A DNA stretch of 17,527 bases from Acidimicrobiia bacterium. Lineage in GTDB: Bacteria; Actinomycetota; Acidimicrobiia; Spongiisociales; JAENVV01. The first letter of the stretch is position 1. Each line of letters opens with the position of its first letter. Positions 1-17,096 of the stretch are shown piece by piece. The stretch is taken from NCBI GenBank assembly GCA_020352575.1, contig CP070681.1, positions 1,342,767 to 1,360,293 on the forward strand. The letters are read 5' to 3'. Position numbers and translations under genes: made by a program. The notes under the pieces are model-generated. The model did no database searches, was not told the DNA's origin, and worked only from the letters and a program-made list of their open reading frames with translations.

Positions 1-1063
1 CCCAACCGGGGATCAGGAGGCCGGATTCCTCATCGGCGACACCGAACACGAGACCTCCCACCTTGGCGGCGATCACCGGCGTCGCGCACGCCTGGGCCTC
101 GACGGCTACGAGCCCGAAGGATTCCGACCGAGATGGGCAGAGCACGACATCGGCCGCGCGGTAGAAGTCCACGAGGTCGGCATGGGGTTGGGCCGGCCAG
201 AACGTGACGGCGCCGGCCAGGTCCGCTTCCTCGGCCCGAGCGTGGAGGCGTTCCGCCTCCACGTGCCCGGCGATCCCCGACGGGCCGCCCACGACGAGGA
301 GCCGAAGGTCGGGCATCCGCTGCCTCGAAAGTGCCACAGCCTCGAGCGCCACATCGGCGCCCTTGAGCGGTTGGATCCTGCCGACGAAGAGGGCGATCGG
401 TCCCTCCCCGAGGCCGAGCCGCTCCCTCGCAGCCTCGTTGTCACCGGGGTGGAAGACTTCGTGTGAGATCCCCGGTGGGTTCATGCACAGGCGGGTCGGG
501 TCGGCGCCGTAGTGCTCGAGGAGGTCCTTCGCCTCGGCCGGTGTGGAGGAGATGACGCAGTCGGATCCCGCGATCACTTCCTGCTCCGTGCGGATGCGCA
601 CCGACGACGAGGGCTGGTCGTCGGGACGGCGGGTGAGGTCCTTCACACGTCCGAGCGTGTGGAACGAGTTCGCAAGTGGTACGCCGAGCGCTTCCTTCAT
701 GCCGAGCCCGACCCGACCGGACAACCAGTAGTGGCTGTGGAGCAGGTCGTAGGCATAGCCCGCCTCGGCCGCGAAGCGCAGCGCGTCGTCCGTGAACGCG
801 AGGACGTACTCGGCGAGCGCTCCGATCGGGAGCCGCTCGGCGGGCCCGGCGTCGATGTGCACGACCCGGTAGCGGTCCGTCACGCGCACCTCGTCCGGGA
901 GGCCGGGGTCGTCGCGCCGCGTGTAGACGTCGACGGACACACCGCGGGCGCCGATCTCGCGGGCGAGCTCATCGATGTACACGTTCATCCCACCCGCGTC
1001 GCCGCTTCCCGGCGTGAGGAGTGGGGAGGTGTGGACACTGAGGTAGCCGACCGAGGAGATCAC
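1..1063 (-). CDS. mshA: MshA-like GT4 glycosyltransferase (D-inositol-3-phosphate glycosyltransferase), C-terminus cut by window edge
   Basis: MshA transfers GlcNAc from UDP-GlcNAc to 1L-inositol-1-phosphate, the first step of mycothiol synthesis in the cytoplasm. The visible 354 residues show a GT-B fold. The N-terminal domain carries HTSPLLTPGSGDAGGMNVY (residues 11-29) and HSHYWLSG (109-116), both close to mycobacterial MshA. The C-terminal domain carries FVGRIQPLKG and the GT4 signature SESFGLVAVEAQAC. The start is GTG at 1063-1061, giving a GTGA 4-base overlap with the stop of the upstream acetyltransferase gene, so the two are probably translationally coupled. The protein continues past base 1; MshA proteins are usually about 420-480 residues, so roughly the last 60-120 are missing. 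No mshB, mshC or mshD is in the window. A related sucrose-phosphate-synthase-like or other GT4 enzyme is the main alternative. Confidence 0.8.
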   Translation of the reverse strand, partial: MISSVGYLSVHTSPLLTPGSGDAGGMNVYIDELAREIGARGVSVDVYTRRDDPGLPDEVRVTDRYRVVHIDAGPAERLPIGALAEYVLAFTDDALRFAAEAGYAYDLLHSHYWLSGRVGLGMKEALGVPLANSFHTLGRVKDLTRRPDDQPSSSVRIRTEQEVIAGSDCVISSTPAEAKDLLEHYGADPTRLCMNPPGISHEVFHPGDNEAARERLGLGEGPIALFVGRIQPLKGADVALEAVALSRQRMPDLRLLVVGGPSGIAGHVEAERLHARAEEADLAGAVTFWPAQPHADLVDFYRAADVVLCPSRSESFGLVAVEAQACATPVIAAKVGGLVFGVADEESGLLIPGW

Positions 1064-1920
1064 GGCGACGCCACCTCGAAGAGCGGCCTCGGCTCCGCGC
1101 CGAGCCGGAACTTGTACGGCTCGTCGCCCTTGAGGAAGTCGAAGAGCATCTGCCCCTCCTCGATGGCGAACTCGATGAGCGAGGCGATGAGGACGACCCC
1201 GGGCGACGCCTCCCAGAACGACCGGTCGAAGGCAGAGTTGTAGAGGTAGTACCCGTCGTCGCCGTGGAACGAAAGACCCGCCGCGGCCATGGCGCCGTCC
1301 GGCGTGAGGATGGCGTCGAGGCCCCATCCCTCCAGCGCCATGACGTCGGCGAAGTAGTCCGCCATGGCGTCCGTCATGAACGCGCCCTTCTCACCCGCAC
1401 TCGTGCGGTGGAGCGCAACGAACTCTGACAAGCGGTCGGCATCATCCTCGAACCGTGCGATGCGAGCAGGGCCGACGAGCTCCTCGTAGCGGCGACGCTT
1501 GCGTCGGGTCTCGTGCCGCTCCTTCTTGCCGATCGATGCAAGCCACTCGTCGAACGAACCGGGGAGGGTCAGGACCGCCGCAACGTCCTGTTCCTGGGTG
1601 GTGACGTCCCGGCCACTCGCCCGGAGGGCGTCGGCAAGCGAGTCGGCGAGCTCGCCGGGGAGGGAATCGATCCGTACCGGTCGATCACCGACCAACCGCA
1701 CCAGCACCTCCACGCCCGAGGGCCCCCTGGGCGACCGGTAGTCGACGAGGTCGCGGTGACCGACGCCCATCGCCACCCCCTCGACGACCTCGACACTTGC
1801 GCCACCGTCTCCGTCGTCCAACGATTCGACGGTGCCGCGCGGCCAATGCCGGTGCAGCACGTCGAGGAACCCGGGGCGGCCGAAGGGCCCCACATGGGTC
1901 GCCGTCGGCGTCACCTCCAT
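1060..1920 (-). CDS. CelD/BcsL-like GNAT acyltransferase
   Basis: This is a 286-residue soluble protein of the Acetyltransf_6 (CelD/BcsL, FemAB-like GNAT) type. Such enzymes move acyl or aminoacyl groups in cell-envelope or glycan pathways; the substrate here is not known. The N-terminal half is poorly conserved and is followed by a very basic helix (KKERHETRRKRRR, about 132-144). The C-terminal half holds the GNAT-like core and ends in FDFLKGDEPYKFRLGAE, a typical motif of this family. ATG at 1920 is preferred because GGAAG lies about 10 bases upstream. A GTG at 1941 would add 7 residues but has no ribosome-binding site. The start overlaps the end of the asparaginase gene by 10 bases, and the stop overlaps the glycosyltransferase start. 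The position next to an MshA-like enzyme suggests a sugar or thiol conjugate as substrate, but that is inference. Confidence 0.7.
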   Translation of the reverse strand: MEVTPTATHVGPFGRPGFLDVLHRHWPRGTVESLDDGDGGASVEVVEGVAMGVGHRDLVDYRSPRGPSGVEVLVRLVGDRPVRIDSLPGELADSLADALRASGRDVTTQEQDVAAVLTLPGSFDEWLASIGKKERHETRRKRRRYEELVGPARIARFEDDADRLSEFVALHRTSAGEKGAFMTDAMADYFADVMALEGWGLDAILTPDGAMAAAGLSFHGDDGYYLYNSAFDRSFWEASPGVVLIASLIEFAIEEGQMLFDFLKGDEPYKFRLGAEPRPLFEVASP

Positions 1921-2846
1921 GTCACGTCCGCTTCCAGCCACCCGACCGTGCGGCCGCCGCCGAGCACCGGCTCCTCGAGCCCGGCGCGCAATCCGTCGGT
2001 GAGCAGGCCGAGCTCATCCAGGGCAGCAGCCGCAAGGGACGCCACCCCCCGGACCGAGCCATCCCACACCTTCAGGGCCACGCCGATTCCCTCGGAGGCG
2101 ACCGCGATGCCGAGGCACGCCTCGGCGCCGTACTTGGCAGCCCCGACCGCCGTGCCGATCAGCCCGTCCTCACGACCCTCACCACCGATGAGCACCGGGT
2201 TCGCCCCCATCGTGGCCCTCACCTCAGCCCGATCGGGGTCGGTGGCCAGCGCCGCAAACATCGTCGCGAGTTCGGTCGTGGACACCGTGTAGACGGGCGC
2301 CCCGCACCCATCCACGCCGGGCGTGCCCGCATCGCGGCGGAGGAGCCCCTCGACCTCCTCCCGGACGGCCACCTGCAGGGGATGGGCCGGGGACACGTAC
2401 GTCTCGATCGGAAGGTCCGAGGCAACGCAGCCCCGCAGCATCCCTGCGTGCTTCCCGGAGCAGTTGTGGAAGATGCGCTGTGGCAGCCGCGCCCCGGAAC
2501 GGACTGCCGCATCACGGCCTTCCGGCGAACTCGGCCAGGAGAGGGGCGTGGCGAGGACCGACTCGTCGATACCGACCTCTTCGAGCATCCGTCGCACCAC
2601 CTCGAGATGACGGGGCGTCGCGGCGTGGGAGGCGCAGGCGAGGGCCAGCGTCTCACCTTCGAGGGCGGCGCCGAACCGCTGGGAGACCTGCGCCTGGAAC
2701 GGCTTCAGCGACGAGCGGGCGAAGAAGGCCCTGTCCACGTCGCCCGCAGCACGAAGGAGGTTGCCGTCGGCATCGACGATGGCGATCGATCCCTGGTGGA
2801 CCGCTTCCACCCGACCGCTCCGGACGACCCGGACCTCGGCGTTCAC
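1911..2846 (-). CDS. Type II asparaginase (Rhizobium ReAV-like family, PF06089)
   Basis: The 311-residue protein belongs to the ReAV-like asparaginase family, unrelated to the E. coli enzymes, which hydrolyses L-asparagine to aspartate and ammonia. All family motifs are present: RSSLKPFQ (44-51) with the Ser45/Lys48 pair, SH at 73-74, NCSGKH (128-133) with Cys129 and Lys132, and DGCGAP (179-184) with Cys181. These match the zinc and catalytic residues described for the Rhizobium etli enzyme (Ser48, Lys51, Cys135, Lys138, Cys189). There is no signal peptide, so it should be cytoplasmic. The start is GTG at 2846, overlapping the stop of the RsiG-like gene as GTGA, which fixes the start and implies coupling. 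Its role in an operon with wall and sigma-control genes is not obvious. Confidence 0.9.
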   Translation of the reverse strand: MNAEVRVVRSGRVEAVHQGSIAIVDADGNLLRAAGDVDRAFFARSSLKPFQAQVSQRFGAALEGETLALACASHAATPRHLEVVRRMLEEVGIDESVLATPLSWPSSPEGRDAAVRSGARLPQRIFHNCSGKHAGMLRGCVASDLPIETYVSPAHPLQVAVREEVEGLLRRDAGTPGVDGCGAPVYTVSTTELATMFAALATDPDRAEVRATMGANPVLIGGEGREDGLIGTAVGAAKYGAEACLGIAVASEGIGVALKVWDGSVRGVASLAAAALDELGLLTDGLRAGLEEPVLGGGRTVGWLEADVTWR

Positions 2847-3352
2847 GCCGGGTCGGACGCGACGTGCCGTCCTGCGATCTCCGTGACGAGCGCGTCATGG
2901 ATCCCATGGAGCGCAGAGCGCTGCCCGGAGATCTGCTCCTCCAGGGCGCCGAGCTCCTCGAGCGCGAGCGAGAGCTCGTCGTCCCCGAGCTCGGGGAGGC
3001 GGGTCAGGACGTCGTCGTCCATGACCCGGGCGAAGCGTCGCTCGACCTCTGGCAGCTCGGGTGCGAAGTCCGCGTGGAGGCGGTCGAGCGCGTTGCCGTT
3101 GCCACCCCCGGTGCCGGAGGCAAGCAGTTCGGGAAGCGCCTCGATGATGGAGCGGGAGTCCTCACCGTTCCGACGACGCTGCTCGAACCGCAGCACGTCG
3201 AGGCGACCATGGAGCACCCGGCGGTAGAACGAGAGCTCGTTCTCCAGGTCGTCCACCTCGTGTCGCATGTCGCCGAGTTCCTCGAGCGAACGGGCGTCGA
3301 GCGCGTCGAGGTACTCGGGGTCGAGGACGACATCGATCCGGCGGCGCATCAT
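2843..3352 (-). CDS. rsiG: RsiG-like anti-sigma factor with two c-di-GMP signature motifs
   Basis: This 169-residue helical protein resembles RsiG, which in Streptomyces holds sigma factor WhiG inactive when loaded with cyclic di-GMP. The RsiG c-di-GMP signature is E-x3-S-x2-R-x3-Q-x3-D, two copies per chain in Streptomyces. Here copy 1 is E37, S41, R44, H48, D52 and copy 2 is E138, S142, R145, H149, D153. The spacing is exact in both, with His in place of Gln both times. A linker rich in Gly and acidic residues (about 77-125) separates the two helical hairpins. There is no membrane segment. The first of two adjacent ATGs (3352) is used, 5 bases after the stop of the peptidase gene; the end overlaps the asparaginase start (GTGA). 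No whiG-like sigma gene is visible. Family assignment is fairly sure; ligand binding is inferred. Confidence 0.75.
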   Translation of the reverse strand: MMRRRIDVVLDPEYLDALDARSLEELGDMRHEVDDLENELSFYRRVLHGRLDVLRFEQRRRNGEDSRSIIEALPELLASGTGGGNGNALDRLHADFAPELPEVERRFARVMDDDVLTRLPELGDDELSLALEELGALEEQISGQRSALHGIHDALVTEIAGRHVASDPA

Positions 3353-3357
3353 GGCGA

Positions 3358-4446
3358 TCAGCAGTTCCTGGAGAGCGTGGGGTACGGGTTCACCCAGTTG
3401 GAGACCCAGATGCCGAAGTGTAGGTGGGGACGCCCCCCCCTCGCATTCCCCGTGTCGCCGTTGTACCCGACGATGTCGCCCTTGTCGACGCGTGCGCCGG
3501 TCTGGATCCCGGGACCGAGCGCCGAGAGGTGGGCGTAGTAGAAGTTGACCCCGTAGTCGCTGTTGATCCAGACGGTGATCCCGCCGAGGCCGCCGTTGCC
3601 GGTCCGCACGGTGCCACTCGCCACCGCCTGCAATGGCTGGCCCATCGGGGCGAAGAGGTCCGTGCCCTTGTGCGAACGACCTCCCGAACGGGGGAAGCCC
3701 CAGTCGTTGATGAACGAGTGGGTGCTCGTCATCGGACAGATGAATCCCGGGGTGGCATTGGACGGCAACCCGCCCGCTGCACCGGCCCGGCGAGCTGCCT
3801 CGAGCGCACGACGGCGGGCGAGTTCGGCCTCGTACTCGGCCTGTGCCGATCGGCACTCCGAAGAGAGCTCGGAACGCTTCTCCTCCGCCTGCTCCAGCAG
3901 GGTGTAGATGATGTCGTACCGCTCGGCGATCTCGCCCTCGAGGTCCTCCAGGTCGACCCGGGTGGCCTTCAACTCCTCCTGCAGCTCGAGCGTGTTCGCA
4001 GAGAGCGCGTTGAGTCGATCGATCGAGCCGATGTCCTCCTCGGCGGCGCTGGCAAGCATCTCCTGTCCGGCGATGACCTGGCTGACGTCGTTCGCGACGA
4101 AGAACACCCCGGTGAACGACTGCCCACCCGCCATGTAGAGGTCAACCGCCCGATCGAGCACCGACTCGCGCATGTCCCGGATCTCCGCCTGGTACTCGTC
4201 GACCTGGGCACGGAGGGTGACGTCCTTGGCGAGGGCGGTCTCGACGCGTCCCCGGATCTCCGCGAGTTCCCCCGTGACCACATCAGCCCGGCCCTTGGCC
4301 GCCAGGTAATCCTGATAGGCCTCGCGCGAGGCAGCACAGGCCTCATCGACCTCTGCTTTCGTGATCGAGCGAGCGGGCGAGGCGATCGAGAACGTCCCGG
4401 CCAGGACGAGCAGGGCCACCGATGCCGCAACCACCTTGCGCACCAT
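3358..4446 (-). CDS. Secreted coiled-coil M23 metallopeptidase (EnvC/NlpD-like)
   Basis: The 362-residue protein is an exported peptidoglycan endopeptidase or amidase activator of the LytM/M23 type. Residues 1-26 form a signal peptide (basic start, hydrophobic core, cleavage near SPARS). Residues about 30-105 and 140-220 are charged helical coiled coils as in EnvC. The M23 domain fills the C-terminus with the full zinc set: HKGTD (His259, Asp263), His306 in YYAHLS, and HLH (His341, His343). It should therefore be enzymatically active rather than a degenerate activator. It is the first gene of the minus-strand operon that continues with the RsiG-like gene. A TAGCCT -10 element lies 7 bases before the ATG with no ribosome-binding site, suggesting a leaderless mRNA. 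The role in wall turnover or division is inferred from the family. Confidence 0.9.
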   Translation of the reverse strand: MVRKVVAASVALLVLAGTFSIASPARSITKAEVDEACAASREAYQDYLAAKGRADVVTGELAEIRGRVETALAKDVTLRAQVDEYQAEIRDMRESVLDRAVDLYMAGGQSFTGVFFVANDVSQVIAGQEMLASAAEEDIGSIDRLNALSANTLELQEELKATRVDLEDLEGEIAERYDIIYTLLEQAEEKRSELSSECRSAQAEYEAELARRRALEAARRAGAAGGLPSNATPGFICPMTSTHSFINDWGFPRSGGRSHKGTDLFAPMGQPLQAVASGTVRTGNGGLGGITVWINSDYGVNFYYAHLSALGPGIQTGARVDKGDIVGYNGDTGNARGGRPHLHFGIWVSNWVNPYPTLSRNC

Positions 4447-6201: not shown

Positions 6202-6576
6202 TCAGCGGGCGGCGCGGCCGAGCGCCAGACCCGCAGCCACGGCGATGATGCCGAGCAGCACGGGGGCAACGAGGTTGAGTGCTGCCAGCATCGTCCGACC
6301 CTCGTCCCAGAGCCCGGCACTCTCGACGACCCACGTGGAGAACGTGGTGAAACCCCCGAGCAGCCCCGTCGTCAGCCCGATCCGCATGGGGTTGTCGAGG
6401 CCCTCGTGGGACGCCCACCACCCGGCGAGGAAGCCGAGCGCGCCTGCACCGACGACGTTGACGAGGGCTGTGGCCACCCACCCCTCCCCTCCGACCGAAA
6501 GCACGAGTCGCGACGCCCCGTAGCGGAGGGATGCGCCGAGTGCGCCGCCGAGGGCCACCGCCGCAGCGGTCACCAT
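6202..6576 (-). CDS. crcB: CrcB/FluC fluoride channel subunit
   Basis: CrcB (FluC) is a small four-helix membrane protein that forms a dual-topology dimer exporting fluoride. The 124-residue length fits. Family motifs are GGALGASLRYG (10-20), Asn40 in ATALVN, and GGFTTFSTW (74-82), which holds the Phe-box and polar-track residues. Four hydrophobic segments can be seen. The start codon overlaps the stop of the upstream fusion gene by one base (TGATG), so the two are one transcription and translation unit. Only one crcB copy is present, so it should be a homodimer unless a partner lies elsewhere. Because the unit appears leaderless, no fluoride riboswitch can precede it. Confidence 0.93.
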   Translation of the reverse strand: MVTAAAVALGGALGASLRYGASRLVLSVGGEGWVATALVNVVGAGALGFLAGWWASHEGLDNPMRIGLTTGLLGGFTTFSTWVVESAGLWDEGRTMLAALNLVAPVLLGIIAVAAGLALGRAAR

Positions 6577-7598
6577 CAGGTGAAGAAGGTGACGGCGAAC
6601 AGGTAGACGGCGCCCGCGATGACCGCGCCGTCGAGCGCAGGGAGGTAGCCGGGCAGGTCCTCTGCGAGGTAGAGCTCACCGGTGCGCCCCAGGGCACCCA
6701 GCGCCCGTCCCGCGATCACGGCGAGGGCGAGCAGGATCGAGACGAGGAGGAACCCCACGACCTGGATGTCCAGGAGGAGGGCCGAAACGAGGCCACCGAG
6801 GATGGTGCCGATCGCCCCCGCCACGAGCGGATCGAGCACGGCGATCGTGCGCACCGAGCGACTCGCCCCCGCGGCGATCGCGCCGAGGGCCACCATCACG
6901 AGGTACAGCCAGATGAGTGTCTGGCCACCCTCGGCCAACCGTACGGCCGCGAGGCTGCCGCCGCCGACCGCTGCCAGGGCCGAGACCATCATCGTCGTCG
7001 AGACGCTCGTGATCGATCGCGTGTCGGGGCGGAATGAGGCCAGGACGAGCGTGACCACGACGGAGAGCACGGCGGCGACCCCGATGCCCGTTGCGCCGGA
7101 ACCCCGGGCGGCGAACCACCAGCCCGCCGAGGTGCCGAGGAACACGACGGTCACCAGCGGCAATGCCCGCAAGCCGGTTCCGGTGTACCTCCCCTGCTCG
7201 ACCAGGTCCAGGGCCCACAGGCCGAGCACGCCGACGAGGACTGCGATGAACCATGCGGGAGAGTCGAAGGCGTTCGCCACTGCCAGCACCAGGCCCGCGG
7301 ACGCTGCCGCAACCGCAGGGAGCGGGACGCCCTGCGACGAGCTCTCGGCCTCGGGGAAGCCCGAGCCACCCGATACCGGCGGGATGATCGCCACCTCGTC
7401 GTCCGGCCCGACCGCCATCTCCGGCTCGGCTGGGTCGCCGTTGCGCCACACCCGGGCCACGTCGAGACCCTGCCGGAACGGGGCACCGTGCTCGGAGACG
7501 AGGACGTCGAGCACCTCGCCGACGGTCCCGGCGTCGACCTCGAGTCGACCGGATCCCGCGAGTTCACGGAGGTTGGCGAACAGCCGCACGGTTGCCAC
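6576..7598 (-). CDS. MoaD-like ubiquitin-fold domain fused to a polytopic membrane domain
   Basis: The 340-residue protein joins two parts in one reading frame. Residues 1-78 look like MoaD/ThiS: VRLFANLREL at the start, AGTVGEVLDVLV, then DDEVAIIPPVSGG ending in the Gly-Gly pair (77-78) that is the C-terminus in MoaD. After a short polar linker (79-91) come 8-9 hydrophobic segments to residue 337. The end of the membrane part (AEDLPGYLPALDGA) faintly resembles the CdsA cytidylyltransferase signature but lacks its PGHGG and DR residues, so it is probably not an active CdsA. The start is GTG at 7598, 7 bases after a TATCCT -10 element. It is coupled to crcB by a TGATG overlap. In the fusion Gly-Gly is internal, so sulfur transfer would need cleavage. 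The function is unknown. Confidence 0.8.
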   Translation of the reverse strand: MATVRLFANLRELAGSGRLEVDAGTVGEVLDVLVSEHGAPFRQGLDVARVWRNGDPAEPEMAVGPDDEVAIIPPVSGGSGFPEAESSSQGVPLPAVAAASAGLVLAVANAFDSPAWFIAVLVGVLGLWALDLVEQGRYTGTGLRALPLVTVVFLGTSAGWWFAARGSGATGIGVAAVLSVVVTLVLASFRPDTRSITSVSTTMMVSALAAVGGGSLAAVRLAEGGQTLIWLYLVMVALGAIAAGASRSVRTIAVLDPLVAGAIGTILGGLVSALLLDIQVVGFLLVSILLALAVIAGRALGALGRTGELYLAEDLPGYLPALDGAVIAGAVYLFAVTFFT

Positions 7599-7605
7599 GG
7601 CGAGG

Positions 7606-7611
7606 AGGATA
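7606..7611 (-). promoter_or_regulatory. -10 element TATCCT of a leaderless promoter for the MoaD-fusion/crcB unit
   Basis: On the minus strand TATCCT is followed by 7 bases and the GTG at 7598, with no ribosome-binding site. This supports the GTG start over longer upstream readings of the frame. Confidence 0.6.
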
Positions 7612-7650
7612 CAGGTCGTCGGCTCTCGCCTCCTCCCACGTCGGACCTCA

Positions 7651-7711
7651 CACCTCGAACCCCGAGCCGTTCCGGGCACGGCTGGAAGCCTGGAGCTCGG
7701 GGCTCGAGGTG
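7651..7711. repeat. 17-bp inverted repeat between divergent promoters (possible operator)
   Basis: The left arm CACCTCGAACCCCGAGC (7651-7667) and the right arm GCTCGGGGCTCGAGGTG (7695-7711) are complementary at 16 of 17 positions, with a 27-base spacer. The spacer holds a smaller GCCG/CGGC pair. The right arm covers the expected -35 region of the peptidase promoter. If both flanking genes are leaderless the repeat is not in either mRNA, so a DNA-binding site is more likely than an RNA attenuator. Confidence 0.6.
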
Positions 7712-9070: not shown

Positions 9071-9730
9071 ATGCGACTCGTCATCGCCCGCTGCTCCGTC
9101 ACCTACGAGGGACGCTTGACCGCGTACCTCCCCTCGGCGATCCGACTCCTCATGGTGAAGGCCGACGGGTGCGTGGCGGTCCACGCCGATGGCGGCGCCT
9201 ACAAGCCGCTCAACTGGATGAATGCACCGAACCACCTCGAGGAGTCCGACGGATCCTGGGTGGTGACGAACACGAAGGGTGAGCGCCTCGAGATCGAGAT
9301 CGAGGAGGTCCTCCACGAGTTCGACCATTCGATGGGGCTCGACCCCGGACTCCAGAAGGACGGCGTCGAGGCCCACCTCCAAGTGCTGCTCGCCGAGCGG
9401 CCCGAGGAGATCGAGGCGGGACTCCGACTCATCCGGCGCGAATACCCCACCGACATCGGGCCCGTCGACCTGCTCTGCGAGGACGGCGAGGGGAACACCG
9501 TCGCCGTCGAGATCAAGCGGAACGGCGGCATCGACGGAGTGGAACAGCTCGCCAGGTACGTGGAGCGGCTGGACCGCGACCCTCGCCTCCAGCCGGTGCG
9601 CGGCATCTTCGTCGCCCAGTCGATCACCCCGCAGGCCAAGACCTTGGCCGAGTCCCGCGCGGTCGGCTGCGTCGAGGTCGACTACGACGCGCTGCGGGGC
9701 ATCGAGTCCTCGGTGCCCACCCTCTTCTGA
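9071..9730 (+). CDS. nucS: NucS/EndoMS mismatch-specific endonuclease
   Basis: NucS (EndoMS) cuts both strands at mismatches and provides non-canonical mismatch repair in most actinobacteria and some archaea, which lack MutS/MutL. The 219-residue length is normal for the bacterial form. The RecB-like nuclease core shows Asp133 in GPVDLL, then Glu147 and Lys149 in VAVEIKR, with the same 14-residue Asp-to-Glu spacing as the Thermococcus enzyme. The N-terminal DNA-binding domain holds [11 protein letters not shown]. The protein ends in PTLF, which may act as a sliding-clamp-binding tail, as known for this family. AGGGA lies just before the ATG. The stop overlaps the trmL start by one base (TGATG), and the M20 gene ends 6 bases upstream. 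Confidence 0.95.
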
Positions 9731-10938: not shown

Positions 10939-11667
10939 ATGGAAGTCGCAGCACACGTCGTCGATGCCCGCAAGGTGTACGGCGAAGGCACCACCGCCGA
11001 GGTGGTCGCGCTCGATGGGGTGACCCTCGACCTCGAGAAGGGTCGTTTCGGGGCGATCATGGGACCGTCGGGCTCCGGCAAGTCGACGCTCATGCACTGC
11101 ATGGCGGGTCTCGACTCCCTCACGGAGGGCTCGGCGTGGATCGGTGACGTCGAGCTCGGCTCACTCACCGACAAGGAGCTCACGATCCTCCGCCGGGACA
11201 AGGTGGGCTTCGTCTTCCAGGCGTTCAACCTCGTCCCGACCCTCACGGCTGCCGAGAACATCGACCTCCCCGTCCGCATCGCCGGGCACGAGCCCGATGC
11301 CGCCTGGCGCGACCAGGTCATCGAGATCCTCGACCTCGGCGACCGCCTCACCCACCGTCCGAGTGAGATGTCCGGCGGCCAGCAGCAGCGGGTCGCCGCT
11401 GCCCGGGCACTCGCCCGGAAGCCCGACATCGTCTTCGCGGACGAACCCTCCGGCAACCTGGACACCACCTCGGCGCACGAGTTGCTCTCGTTCCTCCGCC
11501 GCGCCGTGGACGAGTTCGGGCAGACGATCGTGATGGTGACCCACGATCCCGCCGCCGCGTCCTACGCCGACCGTGTCGTCTTCCTCCGCGATGGCCTGCC
11601 GGTCGCCGAGCTCGCCGATCCCGACGCCAACCAGGTGCTCGACCAGATCAAGCAGCTCGAGGCCTGA
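10939..11667 (+). CDS. ABC transporter ATP-binding protein (LolD/MacB-like)
   Basis: The 242-residue ATPase powers the membrane partner encoded directly downstream. All ABC motifs are intact: Walker A GPSGSGKST (42-50), Q-loop Gln94 in FVFQAFNLVP, signature SGGQQQR (145-151), Walker B IVFADEP (164-170) with Glu169, and switch His202 in VTHD. The VFQxFNLxPxLTAxENI stretch is typical of the MacB/LolD/FtsE branch that couples to FtsX-type permeases. GGAG precedes the ATG by 4 bases. The stop overlaps the permease start by one base (TGATG). Confidence 0.95.
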   Translation: MEVAAHVVDARKVYGEGTTAEVVALDGVTLDLEKGRFGAIMGPSGSGKSTLMHCMAGLDSLTEGSAWIGDVELGSLTDKELTILRRDKVGFVFQAFNLVPTLTAAENIDLPVRIAGHEPDAAWRDQVIEILDLGDRLTHRPSEMSGGQQQRVAAARALARKPDIVFADEPSGNLDTTSAHELLSFLRRAVDEFGQTIVMVTHDPAAASYADRVVFLRDGLPVAELADPDANQVLDQIKQLEA

Positions 11668-14228
11668 TGCTCACCATCTCGCTCCGCAATCTGTGGGAGC
11701 ACAAGCTGAGGAGCTTCCTCCTCGGTGGCGCCATCGTGACCGGCGTTGCCTTCGTGGTGGCCGCCTTCGTCTTCACCGACTCCCTGCGCGCCGGGTTCAC
11801 CAGCGTCTTCCAGAGCGCGTTCGCGGCGGTCGACATCCAGGTGACCCCGATCCAGCCCGAAGACCTCAATGAGTTCAACTTCGAGCTGCCCACGATCCCC
11901 GAGGACGTGGCCGACGAGCTACTCGCCATCGACGGCGTCGAGGCGGTGAGCCCCCAGATCCAGGGCTTCGTGATCCTCGAGCCCCTGGAGGGGGAGCTCC
12001 CCGGCTTCGGTCCACCCACGTTCGGTGTGGCCTGGGAGGGCGGCCCCTCCGCATTCGAGGTCGTCGACGGACGAGCGCCCGAGACCGACCTGGAAGTCCT
12101 CCTCGACGCCGCCACCCTGGAGGAACGCGAACTCGCCATCGGCGACACGATCCGGGTCGCGACGGCAGGCGCGTTCGAGGAGTACGAGATCGTCGGTGAG
12201 CTCGGTTTCGCCTTCGGCGACATCGGCTTCGGACCGACGTTCGTGGGCCTCGAATTCGAGCGGGCCCAGGAACTGCTCGGGATGGACGGCGAAGTGAGCA
12301 ACTTCGGCGTCACCGTGGTGCCGGGCGAGGACGTCGATCGCGTCAACGCCGACATCAACGCGGCGCTCGACGGCGTCGGGGAAGCCATCACCTCCCAGTC
12401 AGCGGCCGAGCAGAGCGCAGAGGACCTGCAGGAGGGCCTCGGGTTCTTCAACACCTTCCTCCTCATCTTCGCCGGCATCTCCCTCGTCACGGGTTCGTTC
12501 GTGGTCTACAACGCCTTCCGGGTCGTCGTTGCCCAGCGCACCCGCGAACTCGGCCTCCTCCGCGTCCTCGGGGCCACTCGGGCAGAGTTGCTCCGAATGG
12601 TCCTCACCGAGGCGGTCATCGTCGGCGTGGTCGCATCGCTGATCGGTGCCGTCTTCGGCATCGCCGCGGCCGCGTTCATCCGCTGGGTGATCGAGTTCTC
12701 CGGCGTCGGGTCGCTCCCCGATTCCGGCCTCGTCGTCGAGTTCGACACATTGGTGATCGGGCTCGTCGTCGGTACGACCACCGCCGCGCTGTCGGCGCTC
12801 ATCCCCGCGTTCCGGGCGACCGGCATCAGCCCGATGGCTGCCCTCCGAGACCAGGTCGAGGTGAAGCGGGCCAGTCGCTGGTGGCTGTGGACCGGCCTCG
12901 GGCTGACCACCGCATCGGTGGTCGCCGTGGTGCTTGCCACGATGCAGGCACGCGACACCGCCGGGGCGGTGCAGGGCAACGTCGACCCGATCCAACTCGC
13001 GGGTATCGGGGCCCTCGGCCTCTTCGTGGGGCTCTTCCTGCTCGCTCGGGCGCTCGCCCGACCGGTCATCGCAGGCCTCGGCCGCCCGCTTCGCAGGCTC
13101 ACCAGCGTCATCGCCCGCGAGAACGCCCGCCGCACCCCCCGTCGGACGGCGACGACGGCTGCATCGCTCATGATCGGCCTCGGCCTCGTGGCGACGGTCG
13201 CGATCCTCTCCACGTCCGTGGAGGACACGATCCTCGAAGCGGTCGAGGAGGCATTCACCGGCGACGCCATCGTCCAACCGACCGGTTTCAACGTGTTCAG
13301 TGGTTTCTCCACCGAGGTCGGCGACCGGGTCGAGACCCTCCCCGAGGTCGACCGGGTGGCCCGCCTCACCTACCTCCCCATCACGGACGCCAGTGGCATC
13401 CCGAACGTGGCCGTGGGGATCGAGCCCGACACCATCGACCTGGCGATCAACTTCGAGGACGTCGAGGGCTCGTGGTCCGACGTGGTCGGCGATGGCCTCG
13501 CCCTCCAGCGCATCGAGGCCGACAACACCGGCCTCGGCATCGGCGACGAGGTGACGCTCGACATCATCGGTGCCGGTGAGCGCACGTTCGTCGTGCGCGC
13601 CATCTTCGACATCGGCGGCGGCGTGAGCGACAGCCAGAGTTGGTACATCAACTACGAGACGGTCCGGGAGATCAACGACCAGACCACCGACAACAGCCTC
13701 ATCGTGGCCGCCGCCGAAGGGGTCGACCCCGACGCCCTCGTCGAAGCGATCAACGCCGAGCTCGAGGACTTCGCCGGGGTCACGGCCACCAACATCGCCC
13801 AGCTGATCGAGCAGATCCGCCAGCCACTCCTCGCGCTGACGGGGATGATCGCCGGACTGCTGTTCCTGTCCGTGATCGTGGCAGTGGTGGGCATCGTGCT
13901 CACGCTCTACCTCGCGGTGAACGAGCGGACCAGGGAGATCGGCCTCGTCAGGGCCATCGGCATGACCAGGCCGCAGGTACGCCAGATGGTGCGATGGGAG
14001 GCAATCCTCATCGCGCTCTACGGCGCGGTGCTCGGACTGGCGATCGGGATCTTCCTCGGGTGGGGCCTCACGGTGACGACGATCGGCGAGGGCTCCTCAC
14101 TCACGATTCCGTGGAGTTGGGTCGTGGCCGGCTTCTTCGGCTCCGGCATCGCCGGGGTGTTGGCGTCACTGCTGCCGGCGAACCAGGCAGCGAAGCTCGA
14201 CGTGCTCAGGGCGATTGCGTACGAGTAG
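11667..14228 (+). CDS. FtsX/MacB-type ABC transporter permease with two extracytoplasmic domains
   Basis: This 853-residue membrane protein pairs with the upstream ATPase. It has two repeats of the MacB_PCD plus FtsX arrangement. The first transmembrane helix (about 16-38) is followed by an extracytoplasmic domain to about 255. FtsX-type helices lie at about 258-282, 314-340 and 365-385. Three further helices (about 405-427, 443-463, 490-515) include the lead-in to the second extracytoplasmic domain (about 515-720), and the last three helices are at about 722-753, 775-800 and 810-833. Conserved FtsX stretches occur twice (RTRELGLLRVLGATRAELLR; RTREIGLVRAIGMTRPQVRQ). Such two-repeat permeases export lipids, lipoproteins or peptides. 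There is no adjacent efflux adaptor or two-component system, so the cargo is unknown. A hairpin follows 28 bases after the stop. Confidence 0.92.
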   Translation: MLTISLRNLWEHKLRSFLLGGAIVTGVAFVVAAFVFTDSLRAGFTSVFQSAFAAVDIQVTPIQPEDLNEFNFELPTIPEDVADELLAIDGVEAVSPQIQGFVILEPLEGELPGFGPPTFGVAWEGGPSAFEVVDGRAPETDLEVLLDAATLEERELAIGDTIRVATAGAFEEYEIVGELGFAFGDIGFGPTFVGLEFERAQELLGMDGEVSNFGVTVVPGEDVDRVNADINAALDGVGEAITSQSAAEQSAEDLQEGLGFFNTFLLIFAGISLVTGSFVVYNAFRVVVAQRTRELGLLRVLGATRAELLRMVLTEAVIVGVVASLIGAVFGIAAAAFIRWVIEFSGVGSLPDSGLVVEFDTLVIGLVVGTTTAALSALIPAFRATGISPMAALRDQVEVKRASRWWLWTGLGLTTASVVAVVLATMQARDTAGAVQGNVDPIQLAGIGALGLFVGLFLLARALARPVIAGLGRPLRRLTSVIARENARRTPRRTATTAASLMIGLGLVATVAILSTSVEDTILEAVEEAFTGDAIVQPTGFNVFSGFSTEVGDRVETLPEVDRVARLTYLPITDASGIPNVAVGIEPDTIDLAINFEDVEGSWSDVVGDGLALQRIEADNTGLGIGDEVTLDIIGAGERTFVVRAIFDIGGGVSDSQSWYINYETVREINDQTTDNSLIVAAAEGVDPDALVEAINAELEDFAGVTATNIAQLIEQIRQPLLALTGMIAGLLFLSVIVAVVGIVLTLYLAVNERTREIGLVRAIGMTRPQVRQMVRWEAILIALYGAVLGLAIGIFLGWGLTVTTIGEGSSLTIPWSWVVAGFFGSGIAGVLASLLPANQAAKLDVLRAIAYE

Positions 14229-15937: not shown

Positions 15938-17086
15938 TTAGGCGAGGACCGACCGGCCCACGATCTCCTTCATGATCTCGTTCGTGCCGCCGTAGATCCG
16001 CTGCACGCGGGCATCGGCGAAGGCACGGGCGATCGGGTACTCCATCATGTAGCCGTAGCCACCATGGAGCTGGAGGCAGCGGTCCATGACCTTGCCCTGC
16101 AGGTCGGTGGTCCACCACTTGCCCATGGCGGCATCCTCGACGCTGAGCGTCCCATTGGTGAGTGCCTCGATCTGGCGGTCGACGTACGCCCGACCGATCT
16201 CGATCTCGGTCTTCATCTCGGCAATCTCGAACCGGGTGTTCTGGAATGAGGCGATCGAACGACCGAACGCGTTCCGCTCCTTCACGTAGTCGATCGTCAT
16301 GTCGAGGGCGGCCTCGCAGGAGGCAATCGCACTCACCGAGATCGACAGCCGCTCCTGGGGCAGGTTGTGGACGAGGGCGAAGAAGCCCGCCCCCTCGGCA
16401 CCGAGCAGGTTCTCGGCCGGCACCCGCACGTCGTTGAAGAACAACTCGGCCGTGTCCTGGGAGTGCATGCCGAGCTTGTCGAGGTTGCGACCCCGTTCGA
16501 AGCCCTCCATCCCCTCCTCCACGACGAGCAGGCTCATGCCGGCGTGGCTCTGGGTGGGGTCGGTCTTCGCCACCACGATCACGACGTCGGCGTTGATGCC
16601 GTTGGTGATGAACGTCTTGGACCCGTTGAGGATGTAGGAGTCGCCGTCCTTGATGGCGGTGGTCTTCACCCCGGCGAGGTCGGAGCCGGTCCCCGGCTCG
16701 GTCATGGCGATGGCGGTCATGTGGTCACCGTTCACCATGCCGGGGAGCCAGCGCTGCTTCTGCTCCTCGTTCGCGATGTCGAGGAAGTACGGCAGGCAGA
16801 CGTCGTTGTGGAGCACGATGCCCGCGCCCGCAGCACCGATGCCGGCGTACATCATCCGCTCGGCGACGATGGCGTTCCACCGGAAGTCGGGCATGCCGGG
16901 GCCGCCGTACTCCTCGGGCACCGCCATGCCGAGCAGGCCCATCTCGCCCGCCTTCTTGAAGACCTCCTTCGGGACGATCCCGTCCTCCTCCCACTGCAGC
17001 CAGTGGGGCTTCATCTCTGCATCGACGAACGCGTCGACCGACTTGGCGAACAGGTCGTGGTCGCTGTCATAGAGGGTGCGTTCCAT
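15938..17086 (-). CDS. Acyl-CoA dehydrogenase, long-chain (LCAD)-like
   Basis: The 382-residue flavoenzyme oxidises acyl-CoA to trans-2-enoyl-CoA, passing electrons to ETF. It shows AMTEPGTGSDLAGVKTTA for FAD binding, the family stretch KLGMHSQDTAELFFNDVRVP, and QLHGGYGYMMEYPIARAFAD. The late motif reads IYGGTNEIMKEIVGR; the Glu of the medium-chain YEGT motif is Gly. The catalytic base is therefore probably Glu245 in LPQERL, as in LCAD and isovaleryl-CoA dehydrogenase. The ATG at 17086 is chosen because AGGAG lies 5 bases upstream; a GTG at 17092 is too close to it. The gene follows an SDR gene by 34 bases in the same operon, which suggests fatty-acyl-CoA breakdown. Confidence 0.93.
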   Translation of the reverse strand: MERTLYDSDHDLFAKSVDAFVDAEMKPHWLQWEEDGIVPKEVFKKAGEMGLLGMAVPEEYGGPGMPDFRWNAIVAERMMYAGIGAAGAGIVLHNDVCLPYFLDIANEEQKQRWLPGMVNGDHMTAIAMTEPGTGSDLAGVKTTAIKDGDSYILNGSKTFITNGINADVVIVVAKTDPTQSHAGMSLLVVEEGMEGFERGRNLDKLGMHSQDTAELFFNDVRVPAENLLGAEGAGFFALVHNLPQERLSISVSAIASCEAALDMTIDYVKERNAFGRSIASFQNTRFEIAEMKTEIEIGRAYVDRQIEALTNGTLSVEDAAMGKWWTTDLQGKVMDRCLQLHGGYGYMMEYPIARAFADARVQRIYGGTNEIMKEIVGRSVLA

Positions 17087-17091
17087 GGTCA

Positions 17092-17096
17092 CTCCT
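17092..17096 (-). promoter_or_regulatory. Ribosome-binding site AGGAG that sets the acyl-CoA dehydrogenase start
   Basis: On the minus strand AGGAG is followed by TGACC and the ATG at 17086. The site overlaps the alternative GTG at 17092 and so excludes it. Confidence 0.7.

Follow-up and report, generated by a model that had tools for sequence, protein, structure and literature searches.

The 17,527-nucleotide stretch of DNA analyzed here (the window) encodes an RsiG-type anti-sigma factor, a family membership that we regard as firm. We assign a probability of roughly 0.75 to the model as a whole, in which RsiG together with c-di-GMP would hold the sigma factor WhiG and freed WhiG would drive a motility and envelope programme via variant promoters. 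Family, fold prediction, partner sigma factor, co-occurrence, promoter enrichment, and downstream genes are observations on which this model draws; all of its regulatory steps are what we infer.

Family, fold, and operon of RsiG

The open reading frame from 3352 to 2843 comprises 169 aa when counted from the first of two ATG codons and 168 aa from the second, with the two motifs starting at residues 37 and 138 in the longer form and at 36 and 137 in the shorter one (Table 1). Its RsiG-like nature, as claimed by the initial annotation of this DNA, was borne out by Pfam, phmmer, and Foldseek. The Pfam profile PF22802 (RsiG) matched the query in two stretches at 6e-18 (64.7 bits, cut-off 27), and phmmer returned Streptomyces venezuelae RsiG as the best solved relative (6pfj_T, 3.3e-11), with three further RsiG entries (7LQ2-7LQ4) among the solved relatives. 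An unrelated coiled-coil family, which had been named as the outcome speaking against this assignment, was rejected, the match to PF24270 reaching 18 bits and thus staying below the cut-off of 27.

Table 1. Features of the window and sites elsewhere in the genome (window positions unless a contig or locus is named; motif residues in 169-aa numbering, helices in 168-aa numbering)
Feature	Position	Strand	Support or remark
rsiG, twin-motif c-di-GMP-dependent anti-sigma factor (predicted)	2843..3352	(-)	Pfam PF22802, phmmer, Foldseek
c-di-GMP motif 1 (alpha1), E-x3-S-x2-R-x3-H-x3-D, ENELSFYRRVLHGRLD	residues 37-52; 3197-3244	(-)	in predicted helix 22-60
c-di-GMP motif 2 (alpha5), E-x3-S-x2-R-x3-H-x3-D, EEQISGQRSALHGIHD	residues 138-153; 2894-2941	(-)	in predicted helix 123-165
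M23 peptidase, first gene of M23-rsiG-ansII operon	3358..4446	(-)	PF01551 1.7e-19
Asparaginase II family protein	1911..2846	(-)	PF06089 8.9e-87; GTG start
GNAT-type Acetyltransf_6 protein, last gene of likely operon	1060..1941	(-)	PF13480 1.1e-24
NucS endonuclease	9071-9730	(+)	ordinary neighbor
ABC/FtsX-type exporter pair	10939-14228	(+)	ordinary neighbors
Acyl-CoA dehydrogenase	15938-17092	(-)	ordinary neighbor
REC-GGDEF gene, GGDDF at active site	G000:C1:1365337-1366322	(-)	about 5-6 kb right of window (L210, L320)
Predicted promoter of REC-GGDEF gene	C1:1366297-1366322	(-)	9 nt before ATG
Weaker predicted site (TCAAC, GCCGATAC)	C1:376832-376859	(-)	26 nt before CAP gene (L168 530-1474 (-))

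An AlphaFold2 model of the protein (mean pLDDT 84.2) consists of two long helices joined by a poorly predicted linker. Foldseek searches with this model (E <= 0.001) gave four matches, every one a chain of 6PFV/6PFJ (including 6pfv_T and 6pfj_T), with TMq of 0.63-0.64, rmsd of 6.1-6.4, and 30-31% identity over the structural alignment, placing the predicted model in the antiparallel coiled-coil fold of RsiG. The motif E(X)3S(X)2R(X)3[Q/H](X)3D is present in two copies, both with His, as in the twin-motif form, and the same genome encodes a cognate WhiG, a FliA/WhiG-family sigma factor over its family cut-off. Judged by its residues, the query is predicted to bind c-di-GMP, which it probably uses to hold back WhiG. 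It shares with S. venezuelae RsiG the twin motifs on two antiparallel helices, a similar size, and a cognate WhiG carrying Lys57/Gly61/Arg62, and differs from it by an identity of only the 30-31% given above and by His at both stacking positions, which are Gln in the Streptomyces protein.

The genes for the M23 peptidase, RsiG, asparaginase II, and the GNAT protein follow one another in the same direction, separated by 5 nt at the first junction and overlapping by 4 and 31 nt at the next two. This order was compared among 80 related loci, mostly MAGs of Acidimicrobiia or other Actinobacteria and some titled "Acidobacteria" or "bacterium". The M23 peptidase adjoins rsiG in all 80 of them and asparaginase II in 79, the remaining locus (L029) ending within rsiG; the GNAT protein is present in 59. 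Outside the class, asparaginase II stands beside rsiG in four of seven genomes of a large-genome phylum group (f71) and in four other phylum loci (overall L107-L110, L117, L122, L128, and L130). No such neighbor was found, within stretches of ~3 kb, among 16 phylum loci where RsiG gives a short match or none and which likely have single-motif forms. Relatives of a further gene of the window (6576-7679 (-)), in which a ThiS/MoaD-like domain is fused to a longer hydrophobic part, precede the M23-rsiG operon in 69 of the 80 loci.

The initial annotation had described rsiG as coupled to a cell-wall peptidase and an MshA-like enzyme rather than to development genes. The peptidase was confirmed as M23, but the MshA-like neighbor had to be rejected in favor of the asparaginase II and GNAT proteins, as no glycosyltransferase family match of the kind MshA would give was obtained among the genes tested between 1060 and 6195 of the window. 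The contrast drawn with development genes is a fair one, although the relatives generally share this operon. Its conservation, together with the asparaginase II neighbors beyond the class, could be taken to mean that RsiG acts locally in a cell-wall module formed with the M23 peptidase and asparaginase II, sigma control being secondary or lost. We hold this to be highly improbable, as every c-di-GMP residue is retained in the query and RsiG tracks WhiG across the genomes of the class.

Histidines of the two c-di-GMP motifs

Both motifs had been recorded by the initial annotation with His at each stacking position, and they were found again at the same positions, 101 residues separating their starts; the strand, which that annotation did not give, is minus. 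Across 200,000 composition shuffles of the query, a single motif (with Q or H) arose at a frequency of 0.00076 and two motifs never did. A homologue alignment of 212 rows was built from the query, 131 database proteins, and the 80 loci; counts from it include near-copies and one fragment (P0011). The motif positions are conserved in the relatives, and the query keeps Glu, Ser, Arg, and Asp at both motifs. The stacking residue of motif 1 is His in 204 rows, with Tyr in four, Gln in three, and another residue in one, and that of motif 2 is Gln in 117, His in 55, Tyr in 32, and Phe in seven rows, with one gap. Consequently, the conservation of His that had been proposed for checking applies to motif 1 and fails for motif 2. 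His occupies both positions in 52 of the 212 rows. On the tree, the query falls into a 16-row clade (support 100) that is uniformly His/His, and the Glu-His/Glu-His state (44 rows) requires four changes, at least two of them forced by supported branches.

Based on the prevalence of His at motif 1, the mixture at motif 2, and the recurrence on the tree, we read the motif-1 His as the inherited background of the relatives and the motif-2 position as one that appears to drift independently among residues able to stack on guanine. The twin His is an ordinary variant of the RsiG motif. PMC8325347 writes the stacking position as [Q/H] and describes His as able to make the same guanine stacking; in the available part of this source, the frequent His in motif 1 is the only exception noted. 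The motif as published there is widened by the second stacking residue, which in these homologues can also be His, Tyr, or Phe.

The suggestion that the twin histidines mark a subfamily in which both sites were altered together, with a changed ligand or affinity, did not stand. The uniform His/His state of the query's clade would fit it, as would the about two-fold weaker c-di-GMP binding of the His-bearing Conexibacter RsiG compared with the Gln-bearing Rubrobacter RsiG (25 vs 12 uM; PMC8325347, available part). We nevertheless rate it as very unlikely, given that the motif-1 His is general, that motif 2 varies alone among Q/H/Y/F, and that the query retains Arg and Asp, the guanine-reading residues of the motif, at both sites along with Glu and Ser. 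For Conexibacter RsiG, PMC8325347 reports a c-di-GMP Kd of 25 uM for the protein by itself and of 1.7 uM in the presence of WhiG, and no binding of c-di-AMP. As this His-bearing protein binds c-di-GMP and His can stack likewise, a ligand change from His/His is, by analogy, unlikely, and a modest effect on affinity is possible. The Conexibacter woesei protein is like the query in that both halves of its site carry His, and unlike it in having one motif per chain and forming a homodimer, whereas both motifs lie in one chain here (PMC8325347, as available).

A truly coupled change does exist in the homologues and concerns residues 36, 148, and 152 (168-aa numbering) instead of the two histidines. 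Asp replaces Glu at residue 36 in 47 of the 212 rows, forming a subfamily. Gln at residue 148 is found in none of these 47 rows, which have Tyr, Phe, or His, compared with 117 of the 164 rows with E36; D152 is exchanged for Glu in 20 of the 47 rows versus 0 of 164. From the antiparallel pairing, the ends carrying residue 36 and residues 148/152 should face each other, and a compensatory swap across the helix pair is possible.

WhiG partner, predicted promoter form, and downstream genes

The surveyed genome consists of one contig of 1.70 Mb and is 69% complete. It contains one FliA/WhiG sigma factor over the family cut-off (264.7 bits vs 189.6), besides three weaker sigma matches, and eight matches to GGDEF domains. 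The best NCBIfam model of this sigma factor is WhiG PRK06288 (3.5e-99), the score of 331.8 bits on a 248-aa stretch being below the equivalog cut-off of 343; with the broader model passed, it was filed as a WhiG-like member of the FliA/WhiG family. In comparison with S. venezuelae WhiG (6pfv_A, 5.9e-87), Lys57, Gly61, and Arg62, which contact c-di-GMP in the Streptomyces protein, are identical. The gene adjoins dprA near rpsB-tsf-pyrH (neighbor names read from translations), which agrees with the whiG synteny reported in PMC4255298. RsiG (E <= 0.001) and WhiG (E <= 1e-60) were scored in 247 genomes of the class; 150 have both, 85 have neither, and 12 are discordant (5 and 7), corresponding to a Fisher value of 5e-51, uncorrected for the relatedness of the genomes.

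The textbook FliA form TAAAN{14,16}CCGATA gave no match in this genome. The form TAAAN{14,16}GCCGATAA occurs in 46 of the 247 class genomes, including many small, WhiG-less ones from one family (f12), and two of the class matches adjoined rsiG and pointed to a CAP gene. Allowing one mismatch to TAAA-N14..16-GCCGATAA, we found eight sites in the 80 loci versus 0 and 1 in two controls, six of the eight belonging to the CAP gene beside the rsiG operon (see below); with two mismatches allowed, this genome yielded 14 sites versus 0 in a biased control, most of them within longer frames.

A variant, TCAAG-N14/15-GCCGATA, is enriched where WhiG is present. Within the query's own order, a count that takes in this genome and its own family, 59 genomes with WhiG contain 188 sites versus 31 controls, and 12 genomes without it, which are phylogenetically clustered, contain seven versus six. 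In the remaining 176 genomes of the class, 183 sites versus 37 were counted in 98 genomes with WhiG and 20 versus 10 in 78 without. The control is the reversed pattern, in which the stop codon TAG may lower the number of matches within coding sequence; for this reason, the comparison of genomes with and without WhiG carries more weight. The -10 element GCCGATA matches the flagellar consensus GCCGATAA, which is used for WhiG in Rubrobacter (PMC8325347, available part), and the spacing fits a WhiG/FliA promoter; on these grounds, TCAAG-N14/15-GCCGATA is predicted to be a variant WhiG/FliA promoter. Of 80 sites, 21 are followed after 7-9 nt (17 after exactly 8 nt) by the start codon of a frame that is at least 120 aa long, compared with 2.6% for random positions of the same loci, and among the matches listed this holds for 42 of 148 fetched sites. 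As this spacing puts the start codon where transcription is expected to begin, many of the transcripts would lack a leader. A WhiG-type promoter on the rsiG operon itself was rejected, as no such site occurs in any of the 380 regions upstream of operon and neighbor genes.

Target analysis covered 150 sites from 42 genomes among the matches listed, two of them from a genome without WhiG (G137). Within this set, the downstream frame belongs to one of eight groups in 50 cases, and 100 sites are without an assigned target. PilT was found in 10 genomes of three families (f2, f3, f6) and CheA in nine genomes of four (f2, f3, f5, f6), followed by histidine kinases (10 sites in seven genomes), CAP proteins (8 sites in seven genomes), CheY (5), M23 (4), pilins (3), and GGDEF (1, from this genome), all among the matches listed. 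As the groups were first recognized from the same sites, the evidence lies in their recurrence across families and not in the grouping. Domains were checked on representatives: the PilT representative scored 2.6e-131, over its cut-off; those of CheA have CheA-type Hpt/HATPase domains and in one case CheW, staying below the CheA equivalog cut-offs with frames that end with the fetched stretch; the others carry N_methyl (pilins), CAP, M23, Response_reg, or GGDEF domains. Elsewhere in the class, outside this order, 30 site-bearing loci inspected by eye gave no clear set of targets.

The secreted CAP-domain proteins with WhiG-type promoters have Thr-rich tails, and in six loci (L009, L013, L017, L023, L030, L056) the site lies 7-8 nt before a secreted CAP gene beside the rsiG operon. 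Of 19 CAP genes, seven were found via the promoter and 12 by sequence alone; eight of these 12 have a site with at most two mismatches (7/12 without L020, where the site stands away from the start codon) versus 0.5% of resampled upstream regions. The genes following sites in this genome are only the REC-GGDEF gene, a CAP gene behind a weaker site (Table 1), and, 30 nt downstream of another site, one for a 94-aa protein with CxxC pairs; a site in L208 is without a convincing gene, and PilT, CheA, and pilin sites are known from related genomes. In a separate observation, a heliorhodopsin frame (L298 1128-1673 (-)) begins 27 nt after a TCAAG-N14-GCCGATA match; this site may be chance, since the heliorhodopsin match covers only profile positions 66-242.

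The sites might instead belong to another sigma factor or regulator sharing the distribution of WhiG, the RsiG-WhiG regulon being a different one. Since the WhiG-less genomes of the order cluster in few families, the correlation of promoter and WhiG comprises few independent events; the three weaker sigma matches and a genome with three sites and no detected WhiG (G236) point the same way. This explanation is nonetheless unlikely, considering the flagellar-type -10 element with fitting spacing, the type IV pili among the targets as in Rubrobacter, the recurring excess of sites in the rest of the class, and the six CAP genes next to rsiG.

Proposed switch and its biological meaning

In the favored model of WhiG held by c-di-GMP-loaded RsiG, the antiparallel helix pair, with an E-S-R-H-D motif on either helix, would bind an intercalated c-di-GMP dimer, both His taking the guanine-stacking role of Gln with the ligand unchanged. 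The loaded RsiG would keep WhiG off RNA polymerase, and a fall in c-di-GMP would free WhiG to read short T(C/A)AAG-N14/15-GCCGATA promoters, with transcription from many of them beginning at the start codon. In the query's order, the programme would comprise PilT (the pilus retraction ATPase), type IV pilins, CheA, CheY, sensor kinases, and secreted CAP and M23 proteins. In this genome, WhiG would drive the REC-GGDEF gene and the CAP gene, and the REC-GGDEF protein could feed back on c-di-GMP. A 2026 paper reports that in Streptomyces WhiG is bound by the GGDEF domain of RmdB, which keeps RsiG from binding (PMC13232838); that the REC-GGDEF protein acts on WhiG like RmdB would be speculation.

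The promoters in related genomes suggest that the switch controls surface movement rather than sporulation. S. venezuelae RsiG gates sporulation, whereas the targets predicted here are pili, chemosensory, and envelope genes. A parallel is the (RsiG)2-(c-di-GMP)2-WhiG complex of Rubrobacter radiotolerans, for which PMC8325347 describes WhiG-type promoters, predicted and supported by mapped start sites, before type IV pilus genes and DGC/PDE genes, so that this class of output is already known. The Rubrobacter switch differs in its Gln, its single motif, and its -35 element TAAA, which is mostly T(C/A)AAG here, and the available part of PMC8325347 holds no mention of chemosensory, CAP, or M23 targets for it. 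Judged from titles and the beginnings of abstracts, we recognized nothing in the literature searched that describes an RsiG-WhiG regulon such as the present one. What the present analysis adds is the twin-motif lineage, the variant promoter, and PilT, chemosensory, CAP, and M23 genes as predicted targets.

We lean, with some reserve, toward the view that the switch served motility before it was co-opted for sporulation in Streptomyces, the second stacking residue having drifted freely among Gln, His, Tyr, and Phe. According to PMC8325347, c-di-GMP is known to target no sigma/anti-sigma complex other than RsiG-WhiG. The predicted promoter form, with its sites and downstream genes in 42 genomes, would tie this switch to pilus retraction and chemosensory signaling in the twin-motif lineage.
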